A stretch of DNA of 6,991 bases, taken from contig CAIZDF010000401.1 of NCBI GenBank assembly GCA_903931645.1, forward strand, positions 1 to 6,991, given 5' to 3'. This DNA is from an uncultured Tolumonas sp. Its GTDB lineage: Bacteria; Pseudomonadota; Gammaproteobacteria; Enterobacterales; Aeromonadaceae. The notes beneath the pieces are model-generated. The model made no database searches. It worked only from the letters and a program-made list of their open reading frames with translations, and was not told the origin of the DNA. Positions 2,971 through 4,395 of this stretch are shown here, one piece after another. Position numbers and translations under genes: made by a program. Position 1 is the first letter of the stretch. Each line of letters opens with the position of its first letter.

Positions 2971-4284
2971 CTAGTCCATGCGAAACGGCATCAACGGATG
3001 AATTTCTCGTGGTGTCAGATCCAGCGATTGGCGTTTAGCCAGATTATGAATGCGACTTTCCAGCGTCAGGGCGATAGGGCCGTTAAACAATTCAGCCCGT
3101 TGCGTCGACAGTATTTTTATCGACATCACCCCTAATTGATGTAATCGATCTCGGTTTAAATCAGCCACAGTTTCAACATCGACAATCAAACGAGTGAGAT
3201 CGGCGCGCAAGGCTACTAGATTTCCCAATCCGCCCATGGCTTTTATGTAACTGATCGTCAGGTAATCCACATCGAGTAATAATTCAGGTCCGTTAGATAG
3301 TGGTTGCGATACCGCTTCATTAGTTGATGCATTAAAAAAATGGATCGGGTGTTGGCTGATATAACCCCGTAATTCGTACAACAAGATACCGAATAACGAC
3401 ATAGGGATCGCAAACCAGACGGTTGAAATACTGGCGTAAGCGATTTGTTCCTGCTGCAACCAATGACAGCCATTATTTACAAACCCCAGAACAAACAACG
3501 TATAGATACAATGCCGAGGCGCCCATAACAGCAGCAGTAATAGCATCGGTTGTGCCTGACCGGATGCAATCATCAGCAAACTTAATATGCCATTCAAAAC
3601 CCGTTTCTGGGTCTTGGTGCCCGCAATATTGATCAGCGCACGTTGGAAGATCCAAGAAATGCAAAGTATCACCAGCCATATATACGGCGACGCCAAAAAA
3701 GAGTGCCAAGGCAAGCTGGTGAGTTGTAATTCAGCAACTGTTCCGCCGGATAACAGCAACAGTGGTTCCAACCAGAGTAACAACTCGACGGTTTGGTGTT
3801 GCAGTAGGAGTTGGTTAAAAAGATGCAGTAAGCCAGCAACAGGCAATGACAATAACAGACAGAAAAAACCGTTGCATAACAATACAATCGCATCGCCCTG
3901 AAAGGCTCTTAACCAGGATGGTACGCGAATTTTTTGTGTAAAGGGCGTCGCCCAAACAACGGCATAACCACTAAGTAATGCGGCAATAATATCGGTAGGA
4001 AAATGCTCAGGACCAAGCGAGTGCAACAACTTTGCCATTAAGACATAACTCAGGCAAGCGTTGAGCGGCTGCATGTCATATTGATAATTGCTGCGACTGA
4101 TAGCGATAGCCATCGCCAGTAAAAGGGGAGCGGATTGCTGGAGCCCCTTAAAGATGGTCAACCAGAGGTGTCCGGTATAATCGATATTAGCAATCATCAC
4201 CTGTGGCATATGGGCAAAGGTGAGCAGCAAAATCGGTAAAATTAGCAGACGCTGTTGGTTGTCATCAAAACTGGTAGATAGCAT
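2971..4284 (-). CDS. Degenerate PTS EIICB-like membrane protein (glucose family), likely non-catalytic
   Basis: The 437-residue product has about ten hydrophobic segments (about 11-305) and a soluble C-terminal domain (about 331-417). The membrane part aligns by eye with PtsG-type EIIC: RLLILPILLL (12-21) with the N-terminal ALMLPV segment, LQQSAPLLLAMAIAIS (48-63) with FANMPLIFAIGVALG, and QKIRVPSWLRAFQG (117-130) with YRIKLPEYLGFFAG. TKTQKRVLNGI (223-233) to LLWAPRHCIYTLFVLG (252-267) aligns with the GITEP region. The C-terminal part matches EIIB: IKAMGGLGNLVAL, ADLTRLIVDV (361-370) and FNGPIALTLESRI (400-412). Key residues are lost. The EIIB phosphocysteine is Asp362, GITEP is SGQAQP (241-246), the HH motif is missing, and the substrate loop is short. 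No EIIA is nearby. Transport by phosphorylation is therefore unlikely. A sensor or regulatory role is my inference. The frame is intact with no stops. ATG at 4284 fits the family N-terminus although the ribosome site is weak. Confidence 0.75.
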   Translation of the reverse strand: MLSTSFDDNQQRLLILPILLLTFAHMPQVMIANIDYTGHLWLTIFKGLQQSAPLLLAMAIAISRSNYQYDMQPLNACLSYVLMAKLLHSLGPEHFPTDIIAALLSGYAVVWATPFTQKIRVPSWLRAFQGDAIVLLCNGFFCLLLSLPVAGLLHLFNQLLLQHQTVELLLWLEPLLLLSGGTVAELQLTSLPWHSFLASPYIWLVILCISWIFQRALINIAGTKTQKRVLNGILSLLMIASGQAQPMLLLLLLWAPRHCIYTLFVLGFVNNGCHWLQQEQIAYASISTVWFAIPMSLFGILLYELRGYISQHPIHFFNASTNEAVSQPLSNGPELLLDVDYLTISYIKAMGGLGNLVALRADLTRLIVDVETVADLNRDRLHQLGVMSIKILSTQRAELFNGPIALTLESRIHNLAKRQSLDLTPREIHPLMPFRMD

Positions 4285-4299
4285 AACACTTTATAAAAC

Positions 4300-4334
4300 T
4301 GTGAGCATTGTATCATTTTAGCGCAAAACGTAAA
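4300..4334 (-). promoter_or_regulatory. Candidate promoter of the EIICB-like gene
   Basis: Read on the minus strand: -35 TTTACG (4329-4334), a 16-base spacer, and an extended -10, TGATACAAT (TACAAT at 4307-4312). The predicted start is near 4300, leaving a leader of about 16 bases. It sits between the accC terminator and the gene start, so the gene need not depend on the acc operon. Confidence 0.5.
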
Positions 4335-4350
4335 GAATAGCAGGATAAAT

Positions 4351-4367: not shown

Positions 4368-4395
4368 AAAAAAGGCCGCGAATGAGCGCGGCCTT
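4368..4395 (-). terminator. Intrinsic terminator of the aroQ-accB-accC unit
   Basis: A perfect 9-bp, GC-rich stem (4372-4380 with 4387-4395, AAGGCCGCG/CGCGGCCTT) with a 6-base loop is followed on the minus strand by a T run (complement of 4373-4368). It starts 16 bases after the accC stop codon. The plus-strand side lacks a T run, so it acts leftward only. Confidence 0.92.

Follow-up and report, generated by a model that had tools for sequence, protein, structure and literature searches.

The 6,991-nucleotide stretch of DNA analyzed here (contig CAIZDF010000401.1 of an uncultured Tolumonas sp., hereafter the window) carries on its minus strand, at positions 2971-4284 between accC and prmA, a frame of 437 amino acids with an ATG start, which we call EIICB′. 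As judged from the frame itself, its kinship, its orthologues, and the structure match, EIICB′ is by descent a homologue of the glucose-family EIICB proteins of the phosphoenolpyruvate-dependent phosphotransferase system (PTS), a NagE/PtsG paralogue with the EIIC-EIIB order, that is phosphorylation-dead and under strong purifying selection. In the reading that we favor, and to which we assign about an even chance, EIICB′ would not transport but would act in the membrane as a sensor or docking protein, its EIIB-like domain and C-terminal tail binding a cytosolic partner.

In a Pfam search of the protein, EIIB scored 13.2 bits against a cut-off of 27 and EIIC was not listed; domain-based annotation, finding neither part above its cut-off, can thus miss proteins of this kind. 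NCBIfam models match both ends of EIICB′, also below their cut-offs (NagE IIABC, E 4e-11). A profile-profile alignment (hhalign) of 11 Tolumonas-type rows with 12 canonical rows gives E 5.4e-15 across residues 52-418, and all 8 sequences returned by a profile search of solved structures are PtsG proteins or EIIB or EIIC parts of them (best E 0.00024). Two predicted models, with mean predicted local distance difference test scores of 73.2 and 76.7 and predicted template modeling scores of 0.59 and 0.60, consist of an EIIB-like α/β domain and about ten membrane-length helices. Their best structural matches are PtsG, EIIB, and MalT, the membrane part matching the EIIC of MalT, and the EIIB fold is present. 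The family signal declines along the series of homologues: against TIGR01998 (NagE IIBC, cut-off 553), two Tolumonas NagE proteins score 617 and 650 bits, the Aeromonas orthologues of EIICB′ 294 and 330, the homologue of an uncultured Aeromonadaceae genome (G014) 140, that of Pseudaeromonas 108, and EIICB′ of the window 28. A preliminary description, with an alignment made by eye, had proposed a full-length EIICB degenerate at its phosphate and sugar sites, to be checked by profile searches and structure prediction. Pfam alone would have spoken against it, and is overruled by the NCBIfam, MalT, and hhalign matches; the models match PtsG and MalT, the proteins it had named for comparison, and the degeneracy is confirmed by residue alignment and by the profile-profile match.

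The losses were counted in 10 Tolumonas loci aligned to E. coli PtsG numbering, and the coordinates given for parts of the protein refer to the minus strand. The roles of the residues other than the Arg424/Arg426 pair, including that of the sugar-binding Glu298, are those described in the cryo-electron microscopy work on E. coli IICB-Glc (PMC11393339). In the EIIB-like cytosolic domain (residues 336-417, 3034..3279), both the alignment and the profile-profile match place Asp362 (3199..3201) at the position of the phosphate-carrying Cys421, which is Asp in all 10 loci, leaving no phosphorylatable cysteine; in a wider set of 12 rows, the position is Asp in 10 and Asn in two (P0018 and P0022). 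Arg426, invariant in 12/12 canonical rows, is replaced by Ile in nine loci (Ile367 in the window, 3184..3186) and by Val in one, so that the arginine pair is broken, while Arg424 is kept (Arg in nine, Lys in one). In the EIIC-like membrane part (residues 1-311, 3352..4284), supported by the predicted helices and the match to MalT EIIC, the motif G[IV]TEP of all 12 canonical rows has become GQAQP (residues 242-246, 3547..3561), with Gln245 aligned to Glu298; the sugar-binding glutamate is Gln in 10/10 loci, and Gly295 is kept in all of them. Thr297 is replaced by Ala (7), Pro (1), or Ile (1) and kept once, Phe337 by Ala (7), Thr (2), or Ser (1), Arg203 by Pro (10), and Lys257 by Leu (9) or Ile (1). 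Leu210, His211, His212, Asn215, and Gln219 fall inside an alignment gap in 10/10 loci, the junction in EIICB′ lying at residues 180/181 (3742..3747). Glu202 is Glu in all 10 loci but adjoins this gap, and its match is possibly an alignment accident. With the exception of Arg424, Gly295, and Glu202, the tested residues of the phosphate and sugar sites are thus substituted or absent in all or most loci, and from the alignment we infer that EIICB′ would neither import nor phosphorylate sugar by the known route.

Other positions have become fixed. The place of PtsG Lys150 is acidic in 10/10 Tolumonas loci (Asp131 in the window, 3892..3894; Asp in 13/13 Tolumonas-type rows). The polar residues Glu173, Trp193, Trp203, Gln214, Gln226, Asn231, and Gln245, which all lie in the latter half of the membrane part, are newly fixed in 13/13 rows, as are, in the same half, His258, Asn270, Gln277, Gln280, Tyr283, Glu304, and others. 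The TPGRE linker, found in 12/12 canonical rows, occurs in none of 54 orthologue rows, and the protein ends in a conserved tail, RQSLDLTPREIHPLMPFRMD (residues 418-437, 2974..3033), whose RQS motif is present in 52/54 orthologue rows and in 0/12 canonical ones.

The frame is intact in 10/11 Tolumonas genomes and not, as would have spoken against the preliminary description, riddled with stops and frameshifts among its orthologues. Ratios of nonsynonymous to synonymous substitution (dN/dS) were obtained by the Nei-Gojobori method for nine Tolumonas loci, the distant L084 being left out, using the pairs whose dS fell between 0.1 and 1.5 (15 of 36); the other 21 were dropped, one at a dS of 0.065 and 20 for values above 1.5 or saturation. 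The median for EIICB′ is 0.048 (range 0.019-0.109), which bears out the earlier suggestion that selection keeps the protein for some job. By part, the ratio is 0.039 in the membrane part, 0.284 in the loop 312-335, 0.017 in the EIIB-like region 336-420, and zero in the tail, where the median dN is zero; the strongest constraint thus lies in the cytosolic parts. The neighbors give 0.024 (prmA), 0.015 (accC), 0.11 (accB), 0.074 (dusB), and 0.071 (aroQ). EIICB′ is therefore under strong purifying selection, but not more so than a true permease.

By genomic position and by clade, EIICB′ is orthologous to a gene found throughout the Aeromonadaceae, and it is no recent wreck. The locus comparisons used marker genes only. 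All 37 Aeromonas loci carry the EIICB family, with panF directly before it in 36, accC upstream in 35, and prmA downstream within the stretch in 33. In 10/10 Tolumonas loci, accC and prmA flank EIICB′ at distances of 89-128 and 83-103 nucleotides, so that panF, LysR, and qor are absent from the locus. In G014 the homologue stands directly before prmA, and no accC was seen before it. In a tree of 38 rows, 26 orthologues form one clade opposite the 12 canonical rows (100/100), within which Aeromonas (97/98) stands beside a clade that unites the Tolumonas, G014, and Pseudaeromonas-type rows (100/100); the tree program warned of long branches and odd composition. Some single records depart from the pattern: the Aeromonas locus L120 (G064), alone among the 37, shows no panF frame between accC and EIICB, the EIICB orthologue of L123 (G074, also Aeromonas) is split in two frames of 630 and 840 nucleotides, and P0017, a record of 404 amino acids, joins about 306 residues of the family to unrelated sequence (Pfam PF01515), probably through misassembly or a frame error.

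The Aeromonas orthologue shares with EIICB′ the RQS tail, the absent TPGRE linker, and the loss of Arg426 (Ser in 37/37 loci) and of Lys150 (acidic in 34/36, Pro in two); Asn215 is Gly in 37/37. It differs in keeping Cys421, Glu298, His211, and Arg424, each in 37/37 loci, and in its weaker constraint, with a dN/dS of 0.204 (EIIC 0.19, EIIB 0.14; 36 loci, 624/630 pairs). In the remaining rows, the Cys421 place holds Ser in G014, Gln in Pseudaeromonas P0023 and its relative P0024, and Thr in P0026. The E. coli PtsG mutant K150E, which likewise has an acidic residue at this place, is described as "locked-in", that is, phosphorylatable but unable to pass the phosphate to glucose (PMC3901232). By this analogy, we infer that the Aeromonas form may represent a natural "locked-in" state. 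Because Aeromonas has lost Arg426 and Lys150 yet keeps Cys421 and Glu298, and because K150E uncouples PtsG, it looks as if the lineage was uncoupled first and became phosphorylation-dead later. As described in the same work (PMC3901232), K150E is a laboratory mutant still phosphorylated on Cys421, the very cysteine that the Tolumonas protein lacks.

The mechanism that we envisage is as follows. The Aeromonas form would probably take phosphate from EIIA without being able to hand it to sugar, and would in this way indicate what state the PTS is in. In Tolumonas, phosphorylation would have been given up while the contact between proteins remained. The reworked membrane part, with its new fixed polar residues, would probably sense either a ligand or a partner in the membrane and relay the signal. 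The preliminary description had itself listed a membrane sensor among the possible jobs. A protein partner is pointed to by the fact that the most fixed parts of EIICB′ face the cytosol, and a new ligand or membrane partner by the newly fixed polar residues. Sugar transport itself is covered, since canonical NagE and PtsG are present in the same genome or genus: the four EIIB domains (PF00367) in the window's genome belong to a canonical NagE and to three further EIIBC frames, and PtsG-type proteins number two in Tolumonas G002 and one in G007, above the cut-off for the two tested. As a more tentative proposal, which we hold to be somewhat less probable than its opposite, the retirement would have had two steps, a natural "locked-in" PTS reporter in Aeromonas and then, in Tolumonas, a phosphorylation-dead whole-EIICB membrane sensor, which would be a new class.

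Several points weigh against this picture. Constraint extends to the membrane part, as would fit a transporter of something else, and in the only pair that allows the comparison, G004-G007, the dN/dS of EIICB′ exceeds that of NagE, 0.109 versus 0.056. The variety of residues at the Cys421 place (Asp or Asn in Tolumonas, Ser, Gln, and Thr elsewhere) means that there is no general phosphomimic. The "locked-in" view of the Aeromonas form draws on one E. coli mutant, and the Lys150 loop, although aligned ungapped in most rows, is otherwise changed too. The roles of Arg424 and Arg426, the pair after the cysteine, are presumed.

We have also considered that EIICB′ may transport a different, unphosphorylated substrate through a rebuilt binding site, with the EIIB-like domain as a structural or gating part. 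The sensor or docking role is moderately favored over this alternative, which we regard as unlikely although it is the best of the rivals. Invariant columns make up 31/163 of the membrane part's first half and 44/148 of its second, many of the latter being polar, and the panF that neighbors the gene in Aeromonas is missing from the Tolumonas locus, matches in the genus being only about 29% identical. Pantothenate import is nevertheless not forced, as panB is present in 11/11 Tolumonas genomes; the stretch matching part of the first hairpin is missing, and the most constrained parts are cytosolic. The suggestion of the preliminary description that EIICB′ might be a facilitator uncoupled from phosphorylation is likewise weakened by the missing stretch with His211, His212, and Asn215 and by the changes at Glu298 and Phe337.

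It is improbable that EIICB′ serves as a dead protomer in mixed dimers with NagE or PtsG, dampening both. EIIC-Glc is indeed described as dimerizing through its scaffold half (PMC11393339), and this half is one of the two parts of EIICB′ to which sequence profiles still match. However, the 13 Tolumonas-type rows have other residues at the PtsG dimer contacts Glu50, Asn74, Asp75, Ser21, and Arg151 given there (Asp at Asn74 in a single row), and only the Lys91 contact is kept, in 9/13.

In E. coli, unphosphorylated PtsG is a membrane decoy for the repressor Mlc, and the preliminary description had proposed a similar decoy here. A constitutive decoy of this kind is very improbable, as a search with E. 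coli Mlc found no orthologue among 11 Tolumonas genomes (one of them, G006, only 87% complete). The nearest protein is NagC: in nine of the 11 genomes the best match is full-length and 45-47% identical to NagC versus 37-39% to Mlc; another genome has a shorter match (42% versus 37%), and G006 has no close one. One Tolumonas ROK protein scores 538 bits for NagC and 404 for Mlc on NCBIfam, both below the cut-offs, and in the window's genome the ROK repressor nearest Mlc adjoins a sequence that is presumably nagA-like. A second ROK of the Mlc/NagC class is present in 8/8 Aeromonas genomes tested (loci L175 and L176, for example) and in G012, the two that were compared being 36 and 35% identical to Mlc versus 32 and 32% to NagC; neither G014 nor any of the 11 Tolumonas genomes yielded one. 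This second ROK and the EIIB cysteine are missing together, though as a single event on the tree. Least probable of all is a decaying remnant without function, for which the lost Pfam recognition, the faster evolution in Aeromonas (0.204), and the split frame of L123 might be cited, which the intact frames in 10/11 genomes speak against, and which the dN/dS of 0.048 already refutes unless dS is badly misjudged.

The proposed sensor or docking role can be set beside known systems. EIICB′ has the domain order, the EIIB fold, and the overall EIIC fold of PtsG (EIICB-Glc) and NagE, and differs from them in lacking the phosphate cysteine, Arg426, Glu298, the His211/His212/Asn215 stretch, and the TPGRE linker, and in having the conserved RQS tail. 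The yeast glucose sensors Snf3 and Rgt2, in which a transporter fold has turned sensor with a cytosolic signaling part, offer an analogy of working only; the proteins are unrelated and no kinship is claimed. EIIB-like domains without the phosphate cysteine are described in soluble regulators such as Type-I Mga, which uses its EIIB-type domain for protein contact; that domain is of the EIIB-Gat type in a soluble transcription regulator, while EIICB′ is a whole membrane EIICB (PMC11537053). For a whole EIICB retired from transport, we found no earlier description in the openly licensed literature. PTS permeases import and signal simultaneously. If the proposal is true, a lineage in which first the transfer to sugar and then phosphorylation was abandoned, with the protein still strongly constrained, would separate the two roles in nature, and it would make testable what the EIIB surface and the EIIC fold do without the passage of phosphate.

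The gene order on the minus strand of the window is aroQ-accB-accC-EIICB′-prmA-dusB-fis, and each of the six neighbors passes the NCBIfam cut-off under its own name. A promoter-like site, TTTACG-16-TACAAT, precedes EIICB′ on this strand (4307..4334), five such sites having been found against 4.0 expected by chance; among the aligned Tolumonas loci, conservation is higher at its second hexamer than at its first. A terminator-like hairpin follows accC (4372..4395, also minus strand) and is conserved in 10 aligned Tolumonas loci, although the number of such sites found is not above chance. Within 4290-4340, the segment from the −10-like hexamer through GCTCACAG is kept with small changes in 9/10 aligned Tolumonas loci, and its GTCACAG remains in L084. 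Elsewhere in the genus, at 12706-14267 of L049 (Tolumonas osonensis), repeating-peptide frames on both strands resemble a CRISPR array and lie beside a transposase-like frame.
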